The translations under genes were made by a program, and so were the position numbers. Below, piece after piece: positions 17,612 through 45,604 of a stretch of 45,604 nucleotides of DNA. This DNA comes from an uncultured Verrucomicrobiota bacterium (lineage in GTDB: Bacteria; Verrucomicrobiota; Verrucomicrobiia; Limisphaerales; UBA9464): the NCBI GenBank assembly GCA_903842505.1, contig CAIMMI010000307.1:1-45604 (forward strand), read 5' to 3'. Below the pieces are notes generated by a model. That model was given only the letters and a program-made list of their open reading frames with translations. It had not been told where the DNA came from and did no database searches. Position 1 is the first letter of the stretch; each line of letters begins with the position of its first letter.

Positions 17612-18811
17612 CTAGGCGTGGAGGACGAGGGTTTGTCGGGAGCGGGAGTGCCGGGCGCGGAGTTCGTGGATGGCCTGCACGACGAGGGGAAGGGTCATGT
17701 CGTGGACCTCGAAGCCATCGCCGATATCGCGGAGGAGGGTGATGGTGAGTTCGCCGCCCAGGTGCTCGCGGAACTCTTCGAGTCCGGCAACGACGAGGAG
17801 TTGGCCGTCGGCGTCCTGATGGAGGAGTTCGGTGGCGAAGAGTTCGAAGCCGAGACGTTCGAGGAGGAGGAGGATGCGTTCGGCTTGGGCGGGAGCGAGG
17901 TGGCCGCGGAGACGGGCGTAGAGGACGTCGAGGGCGATGCCGACGGCGACGGCTTCGCCGTGGCGGAGGCGGTACTCGGAGAGTTGTTCCAGCTTGTGGG
18001 CGGCCCAGTGGCCGAAGTCGAGGGGGCGGGCGCTGCCCATCTCGAAGGCGTCGCCGCTGGAGGCGATGTGGTTGAGGTGGAGTTCGGCGCTGCGCTGGAT
18101 CAGGTGCTTCATGGGCCCGGGTTCGAATCGGGCGAGGGCCTCGGCATTCTGGTCGAGCCAGGTGAAGAAGGCGGCGTCGCGGATGCACGCGACCTTGACG
18201 GCCTCGATGTAGCCCGCGCGTTTGTCGCGGTCGGAGAGCGTGGCGAGCAGGGTGAAGTCGTTGAGGACGGCGAAGGGCGGGGCGAACGTTCCGATGAAAT
18301 TCTTTTTTCCGAAGGCGTTGATGCCGTTTTTCACGCCGACGCCGGAATCGTCCTGGGCGAGGGTGGTGGTCGGGATGCGGATATGGCGGACGCCGCGATG
18401 GGCGGTGGCGGCGGCGAGGCCGACCATGTCGAGCAGGGCACCGCCACCGATGGCGACGACGTAGTTGTGTCGGTCGATGTGGTATCGGTCGATCTGGGCG
18501 TGGATCTCGGAGACGCGGAAGTAGGCGTTCTTGACGGCTTCCCCGCCGACGATGGTGATGGGCGTCGTGACGAGGTCGATGTCGGCGGCGTAGGCGGCAC
18601 AATAGCCCTGGATGGCGGGGAGGAGCGCGGGTTGGGCGACGGCGAGGGATTCGTCGACCACGAAGAGCACCTTGGCTCGGCGGCGCGCGTTCCCTTGGGC
18701 GGCAGAGGCGATGGTGTCGCGGAAAAGAGGATTGGAAGGGGCGAACAGGTTCTCCGTGAAGTGAACCTGGTGACGCCACTGGACCGTGATGGTGCGTTCA
18801 ATGACCGGCAT
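17612..18811 (-). CDS. 3-dehydroquinate synthase-family cyclase, EboD-like
   Basis: The 399-residue NAD-dependent, metal-dependent sugar-phosphate cyclase matches EboD. EboD is a member of the eboABCDEF operon of cyanobacteria, algae and other bacteria, and it resembles 3-dehydroquinate and valiolone synthases. Landmarks are AIGGGALLDMVGLAAA (NAD binding), RIPTTTLAQDDSGVGVKNG followed by INAFGKKNF, GYIEAVKV (metal-ligand Glu), DFGHWAAHKLEQ (His) and YRLRHGEAVAVG (His). The DSGVGVKNGINAFGKKNF block is more typical of EboD than of AroB. None of eboA, B, C, E or F is nearby, which is odd. The substrate is not known; a housekeeping AroB role is less likely but not excluded. Confidence 0.87.
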   Translation of the reverse strand: MPVIERTITVQWRHQVHFTENLFAPSNPLFRDTIASAAQGNARRRAKVLFVVDESLAVAQPALLPAIQGYCAAYAADIDLVTTPITIVGGEAVKNAYFRVSEIHAQIDRYHIDRHNYVVAIGGGALLDMVGLAAATAHRGVRHIRIPTTTLAQDDSGVGVKNGINAFGKKNFIGTFAPPFAVLNDFTLLATLSDRDKRAGYIEAVKVACIRDAAFFTWLDQNAEALARFEPGPMKHLIQRSAELHLNHIASSGDAFEMGSARPLDFGHWAAHKLEQLSEYRLRHGEAVAVGIALDVLYARLRGHLAPAQAERILLLLERLGFELFATELLHQDADGQLLVVAGLEEFREHLGGELTITLLRDIGDGFEVHDMTLPLVVQAIHELRARHSRSRQTLVLHA

Positions 18812-38920: not shown

Positions 38921-40509
38921 GTTCTTCCAAACCCGGCGGCAAACAGCCCTTCTGGGCAGCCGCCATCCAGGATCGTCGTCGTCCGTCCCGTCCCGCCCCC
39001 GCCGAGGAGCGGTCTCCGCGCCGGCCCCGTCGTTCCGCTTCCGCTACTCCGCCCCCGGGCGCTGGCGCCGGCGACGCTCCCGAAGGAGCGCCTTCCGAGT
39101 TGCCCGCATCGACCCTTTACACCCCGGCGCGTCCCGCTCCCGGCCGTCCCGTGCGACGGACCTTCCGCGCGGGAGTCGAAACCACCCGACCGGCAGGCAC
39201 GGGCGAAGGCGTCCCCGCTGCAGTCCGTCCGCCCGTCCGCCCGGGTGCTTCAGGTCGACCCGGCGCCCCGGTCAAGCCCGCGGATCCCGCCGTCGTGGCC
39301 CAGGCACGCGAACGCCGCGAATCGAAGCGGACTCCCGCCTCGTGGGCTGCGCGGATCGTGGCCCGATCCAGTGCAGAGGTGCCTGCGGACCGGGAATTGC
39401 GCGCGACGCTGAAGTCGATCGACCTGCTGAAGCCCGATGATGCGCGATGGATCAGTCGCGCGGTGTTCTCTTATTTCCGGTGGCATGAGTGGCTGGATCA
39501 GGGACGTGCGCTGGAGAAGCGCCTGGACCAGGCCATGGGCTTTGCCGACACCTATTCGCGGCATCCGCACGCGGTCAAGGATGAGGCCTTGCGGATGGGC
39601 GCTGTCCCCGAGTGGATCGGCACGGTGATGGACGTGCCGATCGGTTGGCTGCGCGCCCTGCAGCGGGAACCCCGGCTCTGGCTGCGCGGTCGCCCCGGCA
39701 CCGCACCCCGGTTGAGCCTGACGCTCGGCGGGACGCCGGATGCCATCCCCGGCGTGCTGCCGGATTCGCTCGAGTACAAGGGGTCCCGGGATCTGTTCAG
39801 GACCGGAGCCTTTCACCGGGGCGAATTCGAGATCCAGGACGTGGCCTCCCAGGCCGTCGGTCACTGCTGCGCGCCCGGATCCAGTGGCGCACCCGAGAAG
39901 TGGTGGGACGTCTGCGCCGGCGAAGGCGGCAAGACCCTCCATCTGTCCGATCTTCTCGCCGGGAAGGGCGAGGTGCTGGCCACCGACCGCGCGAAGTGGC
40001 GTCTGGATCGGTTGCAGCAACGCAGTTCCCGCGCGAAGTCGCAGGGCATCCGCTGGTCGCTCTGGGACGAGGGTCGTCCCGTGCCGGCCGCCGGTGGCTT
40101 CGACGGCGTGCTGCTCGATGCCCCCTGCAGCGGCGTCGGCACCTGGGGTCGCAATCCGCATGCCCGATGGACGACGACTCCCAAGGACGTCGAGGAACTG
40201 GCCGAATGCCAGAAGCGCCTCCTGGAAAGCGCCTGCAAGGGCGTGAAGCCGGGCGGCAAGCTGATCTACGCGGTCTGCACGCTCACCCGCCCGGAAACCA
40301 CCGAGGTCGTTGCCGCGTTCAGTGCCAAACACCCGGAGTTCGAACCCTGCGTGATCCCCCACCCGTTCGATCCCGCCGCTGCCCCGTCCGCAGAGCGGAT
40401 GTTCTGGCCCCAGGACACCGGCGGAAACGGCATGTTCGTCGCCGGTTGGCGGCGGAAGGAGATCTCCGCTTCGAAGCCTCAGGCTCCGACACCAGCGGTC
40501 GCGTCCTGA
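38917..40509 (+). CDS. RsmB/NOP-family RNA cytosine-C5 methyltransferase with long disordered N terminus
   Basis: The product is 530 residues. Residues 1-150 are Pro/Arg/Ala-rich and probably disordered. A helical NusB-like part follows at about 150-250, then the SAM-dependent methyltransferase core from about 300. The core has WWDVCAGEGGKTLHLSDLL (SAM loop), DRLQQRSSRA, LLDAPCSGVGTWGRNP (catalytic Cys) and YAVCTLTRPE (second Cys). This is the two-cysteine m5C methyltransferase arrangement of RsmB, which modifies 16S rRNA. The ATG overlaps the TPR stop (ATGA). It is the last gene of the five-gene run; no terminator is visible before the 170-bp repeats. Confidence 0.9.
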   Translation: MSSSKPGGKQPFWAAAIQDRRRPSRPAPAEERSPRRPRRSASATPPPGAGAGDAPEGAPSELPASTLYTPARPAPGRPVRRTFRAGVETTRPAGTGEGVPAAVRPPVRPGASGRPGAPVKPADPAVVAQARERRESKRTPASWAARIVARSSAEVPADRELRATLKSIDLLKPDDARWISRAVFSYFRWHEWLDQGRALEKRLDQAMGFADTYSRHPHAVKDEALRMGAVPEWIGTVMDVPIGWLRALQREPRLWLRGRPGTAPRLSLTLGGTPDAIPGVLPDSLEYKGSRDLFRTGAFHRGEFEIQDVASQAVGHCCAPGSSGAPEKWWDVCAGEGGKTLHLSDLLAGKGEVLATDRAKWRLDRLQQRSSRAKSQGIRWSLWDEGRPVPAAGGFDGVLLDAPCSGVGTWGRNPHARWTTTPKDVEELAECQKRLLESACKGVKPGGKLIYAVCTLTRPETTEVVAAFSAKHPEFEPCVIPHPFDPAAAPSAERMFWPQDTGGNGMFVAGWRRKEISASKPQAPTPAVAS

Positions 40510-40516
40510 TCCCGGC

Positions 40517-40894
40517 TGAGGCCAAGGGAATGGGCGGGGCGGGGGAGTGGTTCACGCGGAGACGCGGAGACGCGGAGAGGGCGTTTGATGGGGGGAGCGC
40601 GTGATGTCTGGATTGGCGCGAGGGAAGTCCCCGGGTTAACCGGAAACCACCAAGCCCAAGTCCTCGGCGATCTCCGCGGCTCCGCGTGAGGCCAAGGGAA
40701 TGGGCGGGGCAGGGGAATGGTTCACGCGGAGGCGCGGAGACGCGGAGAGGGCGTTTGATGGGGGGAGCGCGTGATGTCTGGAATGGCGCGCGGGAAGTCC
40801 CCGGGTTAACCCGAAACCACCAAGCCCAGGACCTCGGCGATCTCCGCGGTTCCGCGTGAGGCCAAGGGAATGGGCGGGCGGGGGAGTGGTTCAC
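40517..40894. repeat. 170-bp tandem repeat (two full copies plus partial)
   Basis: The unit begins TGAGGCCAAGGGAATGGGCG and recurs at 40517, 40687 and 40857, a period of exactly 170 bp. The first two copies differ at about nine positions; the third stops after about 38 bp. Each full unit has a CGCGGAGACGCGGAGACGCGG run near its left end and TCTCCGCGGCTCCGCG (or the TTCCGCG variant) at its right end, so it can fold on itself. The 397-bp gap between the RsmB gene and intI is nothing but these repeats. Confidence 0.9.
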
Positions 40895-40906: not shown

Positions 40907-42547
40907 TCAATCCGTCAGCACCCGATAGGTTCCCTCCTCCACGATCTCCCCACGTCGTCCGGACCCGGGCGTTTGCCGAACCACCGCCTCTTCCTCCGGC
41001 GCTGCGTCGGACGCCGGTTCGGACGGGCTTTCCGGGGCGACCTCATACTTCACCACGTCGTCCCGCAGTTCTCCGGTGTCATCCAGCGGGCTCATCACCC
41101 CGATGCCGGGCCTCCGCATCACGTGGGTATAGATCTGGGTCGTCTCCACGCTGTTGTGCCCCAGCAGTTCCTGCACGGATCTCAGGTCCGTTCCCCGTTC
41201 CAGCAGGTGGGTCGCAAAACTGTGACGCAGGGTGTGGCAGGCGACCTTCTTCTCGATCCGGGCCAGGCCCGCCGCCGTCTTCACCGCCCGCTGCACCGCC
41301 GTCTCATGCGCATGATGCCGACGCTGGATTCCCGTCCGAGGATCCACCGCCAACCGCTTCGCTGGGAATACCCACATCCAGGCCCACTCCTTGCCGGCCT
41401 CTGGATACTTCCGGTCCAGGGCGTCCGGCATCCAGACCCCGGGCAACCCCACCGCCCGATCCGACTCCCACAGCACCCGCACCCGCGCCAGATGCGTCCG
41501 CAACGGTTCCCGCAGGGCCGAGGGGAGCATGACGACCCGATCCTTGTCGCCCTTGCCCTCGCGGACCACGATCTGTCCCCGATCGAAATCGAGGTCTTTC
41601 ACCCGGAGTCGGAGCCCCTCCATCAGGCGCAACCCGGTCCCGTACAGGACGCGCGAAATCAGGCCCAACGTGCCCTCCATGACATCCAGCAGGCGTTGGA
41701 CCTCGTTGCGGCTCAGTACCACCGGCAGCCGTTGCGGCCTTCGGGCCCGGACCACCTCCTTCAAATCTCCCAAGGGCCGCTCCAGGACCGTGCCGTACAG
41801 GAACAACAGCGCGCTCAAAGCCTGGTTCTGCGTGCTCGCCGACACGTTCCGCGCCACCGCCAGATACTCCAGGTACTCCCGAACCTCTTCCTCCGACAAC
41901 GCCGCCGGGTCCGCCCCCTCATGAAAACTCAGGAAACGCCGGATCCAGTCGCGGTAACTCTCCTCCGTCCTCAGCGCATAACGCCGCAACCGCATGCACG
42001 CCTGAAACCGCGGCAGCCACGGCTCCAGCACCTCCGCACCCTCCACCGCGGACTGCCCGGCGGTCATGGATCGGTCGGATCGGTCGGATCGGTCGGATCC
42101 GACTGATCCGACTGATCCATCCCTCACTTCCTCAGCGCCCCGCGCCTCCACCCCCGGCCCCGTCGTCTTCAGCCGGAATGCCGCACGCAACTGCCCGCGT
42201 TCATCCTCCTCCAGGTGCCAGTTCTGGATCCCTCGCACGAACACCGCCAGCGCCTGCCGGATCTGATCCCGTTGCCACACCCCGATCGGCGGGTCCTGCA
42301 CGTCCAGGTCCGACAGGAAATGCTCCACCAACACCTCCACCGGCCCTTCCTGCGGATGCCGCCGGACGAACTTCAGGAAGCGCTGCACATGGATGCTCCA
42401 CCAGTGCAGCTTCTCGGCCGGAAGCGGTACCCGCTGCGTCTCCCACAGCCGCCTCAGCCACGCCGGATCCGACCCCATACCCTCGCCAGACGCCTTGCCG
42501 CCACCCGATGCACCGCCGCCTGCTTGTCCCGTTGAAGCCCGTTCCAC
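40907..42547 (-). CDS. intI: Integron integrase (IntI-type tyrosine recombinase)
   Basis: The 546-residue tyrosine recombinase has the IntI-specific insert between the catalytic motifs: [20 protein letters not shown] and [12 protein letters not shown]. It also has [39 protein letters not shown] and GIGVMSPLD. Catalytic residues are the Arg of [12 protein letters not shown], the H-x-x-R of HTLRH and the final Tyr of QIYTH. Two N-terminal parts (about 25-135 and 170-260) are SAM-like core-binding domains joined by a Gly/Ser/Val/Asp/Arg repeat linker. A C-terminal extension of about 60 residues, acidic, is unusual. GTG 42547 or ATG 42478 may be the start. It reads away from attI and the cassette, as integron integrases do. 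Confidence 0.95.
42066..42121. repeat. Palindromic 9-bp repeat inserted inside intI
   Basis: Three tandem ATCGGTCGG units run into two inverted ATCCGACTG units. Together they form a long palindrome inside the intI coding frame. In the protein this appears as a Gly-Ser-Val / Asp-Arg-Ser repeat linker (about 17 residues) between the two N-terminal domains. All units are multiples of three bases, so the frame is kept. Confidence 0.85.
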
Positions 42548-42589
42548 AAACCCATATTTCGCAGCCTATACAGCCAATGCAAATTCGTT

Positions 42590-42618
42590 TTGACAGACCC
42601 ACCCAACTACGCTGCCAT
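42590..42618 (+). promoter_or_regulatory. Candidate cassette promoter (Pc-like) in the attI region
   Basis: A perfect TTGACA at 42590-42595 is followed 17 bp later by TGCCAT (42613-42618), a weak -10. It points toward the cassette and would start transcription about 10 bp before the attI crossover. In mobile integrons a promoter at this position drives cassette genes. Confidence 0.5.
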
Positions 42619-42642
42619 TCGTCAGTCTAAACAACGTTAGCC
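42619..42642 (+). other. attI insertion site of the integron
   Basis: The sequence TCTAAACAACGTTAGCC ends in GTTAGCC at 42636-42642. The AAACAA(A/C)GTT context is typical of attI crossover sites. Recombination would cut between G42636 and T42637. It lies about 90 bp from the intI start and on the opposite side of the cassette from attC. Confidence 0.8.
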
Positions 42643-43104
42643 CTGCTACGCCACATGAAATTCGTCACCTCCACACTTCTCATTTCATGCCTTCTGATTG
42701 TTGACGGTTGCGGTCGTGAGCAGGCGGCTCAGGTTTCCTCGGCAGAGCAGTTGGAGAACTTGGTTGGTCGTCGCGTTGAGTTGGTTGGTGTCGTTTCCAA
42801 CACAACCGCACCGCAGATTCTTGGGGTGGATTTATGGGGCATGGAGAAGCTTGCAGGCCAGAGCGTGCGCGTTTCTGGTGTTCTTCAGCGTACCGTCATC
42901 ACCATGAGTGGGGATCACGGCCGAGCCATTGATTCTGGACAGGACGGTTTTGCGCTGCCCCTCTTCCGAGGTGCTGGGACATATTATAGATTACAGGAGG
43001 CGAGTTATGTTGCACAGAGGTAGGGCTAACCACCTCAGCGGAATAGATCGGGCGGATGAAGGCGTGGATCACGATTGAGTGGTCACGCCCGATTTATTTC
43101 GCGG
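42637..43104 (+). mobile_element. Single integron gene cassette (468 bp)
   Basis: The cassette runs from TTAGCC after the attI crossover to the G of the attC R' box (GTTGGAC at 43104). In its excised circular form the R' box would read GTTAGCC, the exact complement of the R'' box GGCTAAC at 43024-43030. The single gene (42655-43023) occupies nearly all of it, as is normal for cassettes. Its codon use and base composition look less GC-rich than the flanking genes. Confidence 0.9.
42655..43023 (+). CDS. Cassette-encoded lipoprotein of unknown function
   Basis: The 122-residue product starts MKFVTSTLLISCLLIVDGCG, a lipoprotein signal with the lipidated Cys in IVDGC at about residue 19. The mature part has two similar strands, GRRVELVGVVSNTT and GQSVRVSGVLQRTVI. 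This resembles an OB-fold-like or small beta-barrel domain. It ends LQEASYVAQR. I recognise no known resistance or metabolic family. The ATG is 18 bp after the attI crossover, and the stop is directly against the attC R'' box, so the gene has no room for its own promoter. Expression depends on a promoter near attI. Confidence 0.85.
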   Translation: MKFVTSTLLISCLLIVDGCGREQAAQVSSAEQLENLVGRRVELVGVVSNTTAPQILGVDLWGMEKLAGQSVRVSGVLQRTVITMSGDHGRAIDSGQDGFALPLFRGAGTYYRLQEASYVAQR

Positions 43105-43110
43105 TTGGAC
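43024..43110 (+). repeat. attC recombination site of the cassette (87 bp)
   Basis: The R'' box is GGCTAAC (43024-43030) and the R' box is GTTGGAC (43104-43110, fitting GTTRRRY). Between them GCGGAATAGATCGGGCG (43038-43054) pairs with CGCCCGATTTATTTCGC (43086-43102) at 15 of 17 positions. This gives the imperfect stem required for folding the bottom strand. An alternative inner pairing of GGCGTG with CACGCC is possible. These features are those of an integron attC. Confidence 0.88.
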
Positions 43111-43392
43111 GGAGCCGCGGGGGAGTTCCGGGGCTATAGGAAAACTACGTCAACCTGACCGACCGGAGGATGGGGCGCACGGAGGCACGGGCGGTTGGGA
43201 CTGTAGTTCGGTCCGGGACTGAGGGGTGGAAGTGGACGAACTGTGCGGATGGACTGTGGTTGTGGGCCTGGAGTTCGGGCTCCGTCGGGGTTTTCCTCCG
43301 ATGAGGGCGTGGACCTTGCCCGGGCGTCGTTCGCATGCGATGCGGACGGCACCGTCCTCCGTGGCAGGCAGTGGGCAGGGCGTGGCATCGGT
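43111..43392. other. Gene-free stretch between attC and IS91-type transposase
   Basis: GC-rich, with no supported gene and no second attC. It includes a GGAG-TTCGG-GCTCC hairpin near 43271. In IS91-type elements the ori end lies downstream of the transposase, so it should fall inside this stretch. I could not identify its exact boundary. Confidence 0.4.
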
Positions 43393-44652
43393 TCATGAGG
43401 TGTCGCCGATGGCCGGCGGTTCTCCGAGTTGGATCCGGGCCCGGCGAGCGCCCTCGGCCAATGGAGTGAATCTTCCCTGCGCATCCAGACGCCCGATGCA
43501 TTGAAGTTCTGCGGCTCCGCACCGTGGACAGGCTATGTCCTCTTCGACGTGACGGACTGGGTGGGGCTCCACCGGTGCGATGGCAACGTGCCAGCGCGAG
43601 TCCTTCAGCGCCTCGCGCGCCAGCGGCAGCATCCGTTTGCGGCGGTTGTTCCCGAGCAGGCCGTAGTGACGGATCTTGGTGAAGCCCTCGGGCAGGACAT
43701 GGAGGGAGAGGCGATGGAGGAACTCAACGCCCGACAGGGTCATCGTCTTGAGCGTGGATCCGTCGCGATAGTCTTTGTAACGGAAGCTGACCGTCCGGTC
43801 GGTCATGGATGTGATCCGGCTGTTGGCGATGGCGACGCGGTGGGTGTAGCGGCCGAGATACTCCAGGACGGATTCCGGTCCGGTGACGGATCCTTTCCCG
43901 AACACGATCCAGTTGCGGGATCGAAGGGTGGCGATCATCGCCCGCCAGGCGGGATCTCCCTTCCAGCCTGCCAAGGTTCCTTCGAAGGTCAGCTTGCCGT
44001 GGTGCCGGAGTTGTTGAAGTCCGTCGATGAACTTGCCGGCGAACATCGCGGCGACCGCCTTTACCGGGAAGAGGTAGCGCGACTGGGCGGGACCGACCCA
44101 ACGGTGGGATCCGTCCGGGGCGGTCTGAAGTCCCCCGCCTGTGACCAGGCAGTGAACATGGGGATGGTCCATGAGGTTCTGTCCCCAGGTGTGGAGCAAG
44201 GCGGTGACGCCCAGTTCGACACCGAGTCGTTCGCGTCCGAACTGGAGCAGCGTGGCAGAGGCGGCGTCGAAGAGGAGGCGGTAGAGCAGAGCCTGATTCT
44301 GGAGAACCAGCGGACGGAGGATGGACGGAAGCGTGAAGACCCAGTGGTAGTATCGCACCGGCAGGAGCGACTCGCGCTGGGCCTCCAGCCATTGCTCCCG
44401 ACGTTGCCCCTGGCAATCCGGGCAATGGCGATCCCCGCATCCGAGGGGACGCCAGTGCGAGGAACGGCAGAGGGCGCACTGCCACAGCGACCACCCGACG
44501 CGGCCGGTGTGGCAGTGACTGAGCTGATCCAGGACGTGGAGGGTGTGCGGGGACTGGGGATACAGACCGGTAAACTCCGGGAGGAAGCGTCGAAGGACGG
44601 CTCCCACGGAGGGCCGGTCGGCAACCGGAGCCCCGCAACGGGGCGCCCCCAT
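43393..44652 (-). CDS. IS91-family (Y1/HUH) transposase
   Basis: The 419-residue transposase of the IS91 group moves DNA by rolling-circle transposition. The N-terminal zinc-binding part has CALCRSSHWRPLGCGDRHC followed by PDCQG. The HUH motif lies in MDHPHVHCLVTGG, and the single catalytic tyrosine is in VLEYLGRYTHRVAIAN. A C-terminal region with the HYGLLGNNRRKRMLPLAR block follows, and a final CPRCGAAEL zinc finger. It shares one base with the end of the upstream tyrosine recombinase gene, so the two are co-translated. No terminal inverted repeats are expected for this family. Confidence 0.95.
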   Translation of the reverse strand: MGAPRCGAPVADRPSVGAVLRRFLPEFTGLYPQSPHTLHVLDQLSHCHTGRVGWSLWQCALCRSSHWRPLGCGDRHCPDCQGQRREQWLEAQRESLLPVRYYHWVFTLPSILRPLVLQNQALLYRLLFDAASATLLQFGRERLGVELGVTALLHTWGQNLMDHPHVHCLVTGGGLQTAPDGSHRWVGPAQSRYLFPVKAVAAMFAGKFIDGLQQLRHHGKLTFEGTLAGWKGDPAWRAMIATLRSRNWIVFGKGSVTGPESVLEYLGRYTHRVAIANSRITSMTDRTVSFRYKDYRDGSTLKTMTLSGVEFLHRLSLHVLPEGFTKIRHYGLLGNNRRKRMLPLAREALKDSRWHVAIAPVEPHPVRHVEEDIACPRCGAAELQCIGRLDAQGRFTPLAEGARRARIQLGEPPAIGDTS

Positions 44653-45527
44653 CAGCGTCTGGGATGGAGATCGGTGCGGATCAGCCCGAGAGGACTCTTG
44701 ACCTGCCCCATGCGCTCCTGGCGGACATGGAGATAGTTGGCGGTGGTGGAAAGGTAGGCGTGGCCGAGGAACTTCTGGACGAGGGTGATCTCGACGCCGT
44801 TCTCGATGAGATGAGTGGCGAAGCTATGGCGCAACCCATGGATGCCGCACTTGGCCGGGAGTTGGGCGCGCTTGCGGGCCCGGTAGTAGATGTTCTGAGC
44901 CGTGCCCTTGCAGATGGGGTCCTGATCGGGCCCCTGGGAGAAGAGCCATTGGGCAGGGCGATGGACGCGGTACCAGGCGCGCAACTCCCGGAGGAGGTTG
45001 TCGCTGAGCGGAACGAGGCGCTCGCGACCTCCCTTGGCATGGGAGACGCGGAGTTGGAAGCGCTTGGAGTCGATGTCGGCGATACGGACGTGGACGGCTT
45101 CGGAGAGGCGGAGACCGCAGCCATAGACGGTCATGAGGAAGGCGCGAGCGAGAGGATCGCCGTCGGTGCCGATGGTGAGGAGGCGCTCGACCTCGTCGGG
45201 GCTGAAGACGCGTGGAAGCTGGAGAGGGCGCCGCGGGGTCCGGATGCCTGAGAAGAGGACGGCGACGTCCTGATGGAGGAAGAGTCCGTAGAAGGCCCTG
45301 AGGGACTTGATGGCGAGGGTGACGGAGCAGTCGGAGAGCTTGCGCTCCTGAATGAGGTGGAGTACGAACGAACTAATCTCGGGGCGACCGAGGGCATCGG
45401 GAGACGCCTTGTGGAAGCGGGCCAGATCCGCGACCCAATGGATATAGGTCTGGACGGTGCGCTCGGAGAGCTGGCGCAAGGTGAGGTGATCGATGAATTT
45501 TTGCCGTAGTGGCGTAATGGTTTTCAT
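44652..45527 (-). CDS. Tyrosine recombinase associated with IS91-type transposase
   Basis: The 291-residue phage-integrase-type recombinase has a core-binding domain (residues 5-90, TVQTYIHWVADLARFH) and a catalytic domain. The catalytic Arg is in GCGLRLSEAVHVRI, the H-x-x-R in [13 protein letters not shown], and the Tyr in TTANYLHVRQ. The IntI-specific insert is absent, so it is not an integron integrase. IS91-type transposases in many phyla carry such a partner directly upstream. Starts at ATG 45527, with a perfect hairpin a few bases away. Confidence 0.93.
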   Translation of the reverse strand: MKTITPLRQKFIDHLTLRQLSERTVQTYIHWVADLARFHKASPDALGRPEISSFVLHLIQERKLSDCSVTLAIKSLRAFYGLFLHQDVAVLFSGIRTPRRPLQLPRVFSPDEVERLLTIGTDGDPLARAFLMTVYGCGLRLSEAVHVRIADIDSKRFQLRVSHAKGGRERLVPLSDNLLRELRAWYRVHRPAQWLFSQGPDQDPICKGTAQNIYYRARKRAQLPAKCGIHGLRHSFATHLIENGVEITLVQKFLGHAYLSTTANYLHVRQERMGQVKSPLGLIRTDLHPRR

Positions 45528-45530
45528 TCA

Positions 45531-45550
45531 CCCGGAGCGTGTGCTCCGGG
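45531..45550. repeat. Perfect hairpin upstream of the IS91-type recombinase
   Basis: CCCGGAGC-GTGT-GCTCCGGG is an 8-bp stem with a 4-nt loop. A second hairpin, CGAAGCC / GGCTTCG, follows at about 45574-45598. They precede the recombinase gene and could be part of the element's ter end or a regulatory stem. Confidence 0.6.
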
Positions 45551-45604
45551 AGGCCCATGTCGTCCACTGCGGCGAAGCCCCCCCGCGCAGCGGCTTCGTT
45601 CAAC

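Follow-up and report, generated by a model that had tools for sequence, protein, structure and literature searches.

An integron integrase beside an IS91-family element, and dispersed attI modules, in a freshwater Verrucomicrobia genome

Introduction

Integrons are taught as systems of one integrase, one attI and one expressed array head, with cassettes being inserted at attI by the single-strand attC route. The locus described here, in which an integron integrase gene is followed by an attI and by what looked like a single cassette with its attC, lies in one whole contig (C307; 45,604 nt, referred to as the window) of a freshwater Verrucomicrobia MAG. In an earlier annotation, made without database searches and referred to as the sequence-only reading, the locus was described as a single-cassette chromosomal integron.

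Materials and Methods

The source MAG comprises 5.2 Mb in 362 contigs and has a contamination of 2.5%. DNA from cassette 1 onward was compared with a set of 50 genomes of the same family. The covariance model for attC was trained exclusively on sites from further genomes of the family, with the source genome being left out. Strict RYYYAAC/GTTRRRY scans miss the site in the window; chained matching of R'' and R' was used instead. A search against Rfam returned chance matches only.

Table 1. Positions of the integron and transposon features in the window (a vertical bar marks the crossover)
Feature	Position	Strand	Basis
Integron integrase gene intI (546 aa; core at about residues 178-490, N-terminal extension of 175 aa)	40907..42547	-	TIGR02249; IntI4 (2a3v)
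Pc-attI module (about 80 bp)	42557..42636	+	Nine places in four genomes, same boundary
Putative cassette promoter Pc: TTGACA (42590-42595), 17 nt, TGCCAT (42613-42618)	42590..42618	+	
attI simple site CAGTCTAAACAACG|TT	42623..42638	+	Crossover 42636|42637; conserved among copies
Cassette 1 up to the R'' box	42637..43030	+	Start GTTAGCC complementary to R'' GGCTAAC at 7/7 positions
Cassette 1 ORF (122 aa; lipoprotein-like signal peptide)	42655..43023	+	
R'' box GGCTAAC, sole attC part remaining on the window side of the transposon	43024..43030	+	
IS91-family element (2574 bp; transposase and tyrosine recombinase)	43031..45604	-	Ends common to relatives
Terminal hairpin of the element (attC stem of the sequence-only reading)	43038..43102	.	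Comparison of element ends
IS91-family transposase (419 aa)	43393..44652	-	NF033538, 373 bits (cut-off 125); Y2_Tnp, Zn_Tnp_IS91
Tyrosine recombinase of the element (291 aa)	44652..45527	-	PF00589; TIGR02249, 178 bits

Results

The integrase encoded at this locus (Table 1) scored 444 bits against TIGR02249 (NCBIfam integrase_gron; cut-off: 265 bits), and the solved integron integrase IntI4 (2a3v) could be aligned with its full core, including the integron-specific insert (E = 5.7e-88). It was the only IntI above the cut-off in a profile search of the source genome. The codon composition of its N-terminal extension is normal, and none of the further integrase loci examined in the family was found to contain a relative of this extension. 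Inside the intI frame a tandem repeat of GGATCGGTC units (42066-42121) encodes the linker between the extension and the IntI core, and directly downstream of intI (40500-40890) the sequence contains direct repeats, each about 170 bp long and almost identical (..ggccaagggaatgggcggggc..gttcacgcggag..).

An attI with a crossover at G|TT adjoins intI. The sequence shared by the attI copies of the genome, which are described below, ends at GTT (base 42638), and the cassette start behind it differs from copy to copy. This comparison confirms the attI and the crossover as placed in the sequence-only reading (AAACAACG|TTAGCC), which was equally right about the complementarity between the 5' end of the cassette and the R'' box (7/7 positions). 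Its assignment of the gene to a chromosomal integron agrees with the TIGR02249 score and with the IntI4 alignment across the insert, and the IntI-specific domain, on which the assignment depended, is present in the profile search. No family above the cut-off was found for the ORF of cassette 1. The -35 and -10 hexamers of the putative promoter follow the pattern TTGANN-N17-NGCNAT, the 17-nt spacing being kept in 9/9 copies of the module. In most copies an imperfect inverted repeat (CGCAGCCTA ... TA(G/C)GCTGC; 42560-42620 in the window) spans this putative promoter and possibly represents an operator or accessory binding sites of IntI.

Downstream of cassette 1 the sequence-only reading had proposed an attC at 43024-43110. 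Only its R'' box (43024-43030) turned out to be genuine. The proposed stem and R' box form part of one end of an IS91-family element, which sits directly behind R'' and with its right end (...GTTCAAC) extends exactly to the contig end. The transposase of the element is of the IS91 type with a zinc-binding N-terminus (NF033538, PF04986, PF14319), and the score of its tyrosine recombinase remains below the cut-off for integron integrases (178 vs 265 bits, TIGR02249). Among the 50 family genomes, matches to this region begin at about position 43031, pass the stem as well as the supposed R' box and run into the IS91 transposase gene, with one match (G045:C116) extending from the proposed attC into the transposase gene without a break (78% over 1.3 kb). 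The same element end of about 120 bp was found in G041, G038, G043, G026, G015, G016 and others, and 17 aligned left ends, including the one from the window, share one start base (..AA|CACC..AGCGGAATAGATCGGGCG, the bar here marking the element start). The proposed R' box GTTGGAC (43104-43110) thus falls within the element; as a start of cassette 2 it was rejected for this reason. The number of paired positions in the stem (15/17; 43038-43054 with 43086-43102) was counted correctly, and the stem folds better than shuffled sequences (z = -2.8 and -3.2), but it is not the stem of an attC. The covariance model yielded no match at 43024-43110, even with filters switched off, and detected sites on two other contigs of the genome, C128 (46.8, 39.1 and 36.0 bits) and C251 (35.8, 33.2 and 30.2 bits). 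A covariance match at 43024-43110 was the check that the sequence-only reading had named for its attC, and the proposed site does not pass it. The two ends of the element were also considered as inverted repeats and rejected, as they match no better than shuffled sequences. The stretch 43031-45604 is thus an IS91-family element, with defined ends and a terminal hairpin seen in its sequence, inserted precisely after R'' of cassette 1 and splitting its attC.

Over its final 141 bases the window is identical to an end of C251, and this sequence has no other copy in the genome. Such an exact overlap is what k-mer assembly would leave at the boundary of a repeat. On C251 the rest of an attC (ATGGCGGTCCAGCG...GACCTTGGCGTTAGCC) follows immediately after the element end. 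Rejoined with R'' from the window it forms an attC of 101 nt. In the fold of its bottom strand (z = -4.3) the R stem pairs perfectly over 7 bp, the spacers stay unpaired and bases bulge out, much as in an intact attC of C128. R'' and R' match across the join of both contigs, but cassette 2 happens to begin with identical letters. The join is likely and is based on this single 141-bp overlap, located at the end of a repeat, and the rest of the attC of cassette 1 is probably found beyond the transposon on C251. Further cassettes on this contig are oriented like the array of the window. The array hence probably goes on across the overlap, and the single-cassette integron that had been proposed is therefore not supported. 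Cassettes ending in attC were identified by the independent model on C251 and C128. One cassette on C251 (L044; about 18200-18700, minus strand), judged by eye, encodes a HicB/HicA-like toxin-antitoxin pair.

Nearly all of the 17 aligned left ends of the element have an R''-like box with a terminal AAC in front of them. Regarding the right ends, seven of 13 abut or overlap an attC detected by the model, six of them with an R'' overlap of exactly 7 nt and the seventh at an attC with a weak match that begins just inside; at least four of the 13 are located away from any recognisable attC. Genomes of the source genus contain about 1-18 attC matches each. As element ends recur in many related genomes and mostly at R'' boxes of attC, these elements look like an attC-targeting IS91 group, and it appears possible that their actual target is folded attC DNA. 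One attC array (G041:C169; L159) contains two shortened IS91-like copies (about 1.2 and 1.4 kb between the ends), which are probably non-autonomous.

The 82 nt that begin next to the intI start and lead up to the crossover are found twice more in the source genome, namely at C128:14890-14971 (90%) and at C110:20451-20532 (82%), on contigs that the sequence-only reading could not see. In all three copies 31 nt are identical, and the identity ends at GTT, followed by three different cassettes. Three attI modules are thus present alongside one IntI above the cut-off. Further copies were found in three Verrucomicrobia MAGs with the same attI type, with one copy each in G038 (UBA6176) and G049 (UWPOB_VERRUCO1) and four copies, one of them divergent, in G042 (D8_MAG_00040), which results in nine copies in four genomes. 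When 84,980 species genomes, with the source genome left out, were scanned for the pattern, the module was found in none beyond these three. Only the copy in the window adjoins intI. Upstream of the intI-less copies no remnant of intI could be found over 2.5 kb (for G049 about 80 bp of sequence are available), and no IntI was found in G042 and G049, although both contain attI modules. Pairwise homology between the copies stops 78-80 nt before the crossover, except for one recent pair in G042, and the flanking genes differ from one site to the next.

The SNF2-SWIM genes next to the C128 module have conserved counterparts in G038 and G044 without any attI or array following them there, and the platform on C128 was therefore either gained in the source genome or lost in these two. 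The SNF2 gene on C128 is 88% identical (aa) to that of G038, and a gene on C110 is 89% identical (aa) to that of G042, both being genomes of the same genus. The module on C128 is followed by three cassettes, the starts of which are exact complements of their R'' boxes. With three attC and no intI on the contig, this array corresponds to a CALIN (two or more attC, intI not nearby). An overlap search with the contig ends of C110, C128 and C333 revealed only a 141-bp end common to C128 and C343; the C128 array (L041; 17043-17183) runs into this end, which contains the start of a transposase-like ORF. On C110 (L042; 19831-19970) the first cassette after attI encodes a barstar-like start (..YYGRNMDAWNDCM..) and is cut by the contig end.

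Several cassettes have close copies elsewhere. Cassette 1 of C128 is 93.6% identical to cassette 3 of the same contig and 95.6% identical to a cassette on C251, and cassette 2 of C128 matches, with 94.4% identity along 519 bp, the first cassette next to the G038 integrase, beside which an attI of another type is located. Such near-identical cassettes across arrays and genomes indicate that cassettes move between platforms and species. A second type of attI module (..GGCGGTCTAAACAACG|TT) is repeated in ten genomes of the sister genus g8, with up to three copies per genome and sometimes two copies on one contig, and has a putative promoter of the TTGAGA-17 nt-RNYTAG type. On several g8 contigs attC sites follow the module in the same orientation. 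No IntI was found on the g8 contigs examined and none above the cut-off in those genomes, which are incomplete MAGs. Tandem modules, two or more in the same orientation and 1-3 kb apart, were observed on G028:C100 (L198), G023:C190 (L218) and G035:C22 (L227).

Discussion

With a probability of roughly 0.8, the window contains the integrase end of a chromosomal integron in which the attC of cassette 1 is split by an IS91-family element, with the array going on in C251 and with intI-less Pc-attI copies elsewhere in the genome that IntI may serve in trans. IntI, being transcribed leftward, would recombine the attC of circular cassettes into attI, and the predicted Pc inside the attI module would transcribe the newest cassettes of an array that would extend beyond the IS91 element. 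As the source genome has three conserved Pc-attI modules with arrays and with shared cassettes, the simplest and favoured reading is that one integrase serves dispersed platforms, so that the single IntI would act in trans on C307, C128 and C110. Against this reading speak G042, G049 and genus g8, which have attI modules and in which no IntI was found, so that modules and a detected integrase do not always go together.

As the main alternative, the intI-less copies might be relics of duplicated complete integrons that lost intI, with no service in trans. This would fit with G042 and genus g8 possessing modules and no detected IntI, and integrase loss with attC arrays remaining is documented for Treponema (PMC3607928) and Xanthomonas (PMC12444791). 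However, the homology breaks off at -78 to -80, and the 2.5 kb upstream contain no trace of intI, so that a precise deletion of intI would have been needed each time. The attI core and the promoter spacing are, moreover, still conserved, and close cassette copies are shared among arrays of the same genome, which makes relics rather unlikely.

A separate question is whether the IS91-family elements are located in integrons merely by chance. Elements of this family prefer short tetranucleotide targets, and a usual preference for AAC/GAAC would agree with the few copies outside recognisable attC. Yet the proportion of right ends at model-detected attC (7/13, with six exact 7-nt R'' overlaps), given only about 1-18 attC per genome, is not what chance would produce, and such an explanation is improbable. 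MAG chimerism, with C128, C110 or C251 stemming from other strains and the genome having only one attI, could be suspected from the number of contigs and the contamination, but it is very improbable considering the 88-89% identity (aa) of C128 and C110 genes to same-genus genomes, the same GC, the four copies in G042 alone and the two or three copies in several g8 genomes. Unless the element ends should themselves be cassettes, a single-cassette integron with its attC at 43024-43110 can practically be dismissed, since, despite the 7/7 complement, the 15/17 stem and a fold that beats shuffles, the stem and R' recur in many genomes as an IS91 element end continuous with the transposase gene, the spacers measure 7 and 1 nt without bulged bases or a covariance match, and the array goes on in C251.

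With its IntI-specific domain, its divergent intI, an attI simple site like CTAAACAACG|TT and complementary R boxes, the integron with dispersed modules favoured here resembles a sedentary chromosomal integron. Unlike in such integrons, the attI module occurs three times in one genome, with two copies lacking intI, whereas the usual statement is that each integron has one attI (PMC3607928). The C128 array resembles a CALIN in having three attC and no intI nearby; CALINs are, however, defined without reference to attI, and this array is headed by a conserved Pc-attI module. In one published survey only attI of the known classes 1-3 were looked for (PMC7923331). An attI sequence away from intI is also found in the delta-attI gene cassettes of mobile integrons, in which a truncated or complete attI replaces attC within one array (PMC12901181). 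In contrast to these cassettes, the Pc-attI modules of the source genome are complete and head arrays at unrelated chromosomal sites.

The IS91-family elements have counterparts in other mobile elements with a fixed insertion position in attC. Group IIC-attC introns, for example, target attC. IS1111-attC insertion sequences such as ISKpn4 and ISPst6 also insert at attC (PMC11187229). Unlike in both of these, the machinery consists of an IS91-family transposase, and not of a DEDD transposase of the IS110/IS1111 type, together with a linked tyrosine recombinase, and insertion takes place after the AAC of R''. A search of openly accessible journal papers revealed no report of an attC-targeting IS91 group and none of repeated attI modules. 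With an IS91-family group of this kind, the elements specific to attC would include one more type, the terminal hairpin of which, as in the window, is easily taken for an attC.

Two things were unexpected in this genome, namely the dispersal of attI modules and an IS91 group seated at attC, with the repeated Pc-attI module being the least expected result. For the family as a whole, a broader picture can be drawn only tentatively, at somewhat less than even odds: Pc-attI modules may be dispersed and possibly mobile units, one integrase (with none chromosomally linked in sister genera) may fill several arrays, each with its own promoter, and the IS91/tyrosine-recombinase group may specialise in attC. 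If several Pc-attI modules per genome are indeed in use, new cassettes would have several first positions for their expression, and the docking platform would have been separated from the integrase in evolution. Arrays without intI (CALINs) may then be working platforms and not debris.
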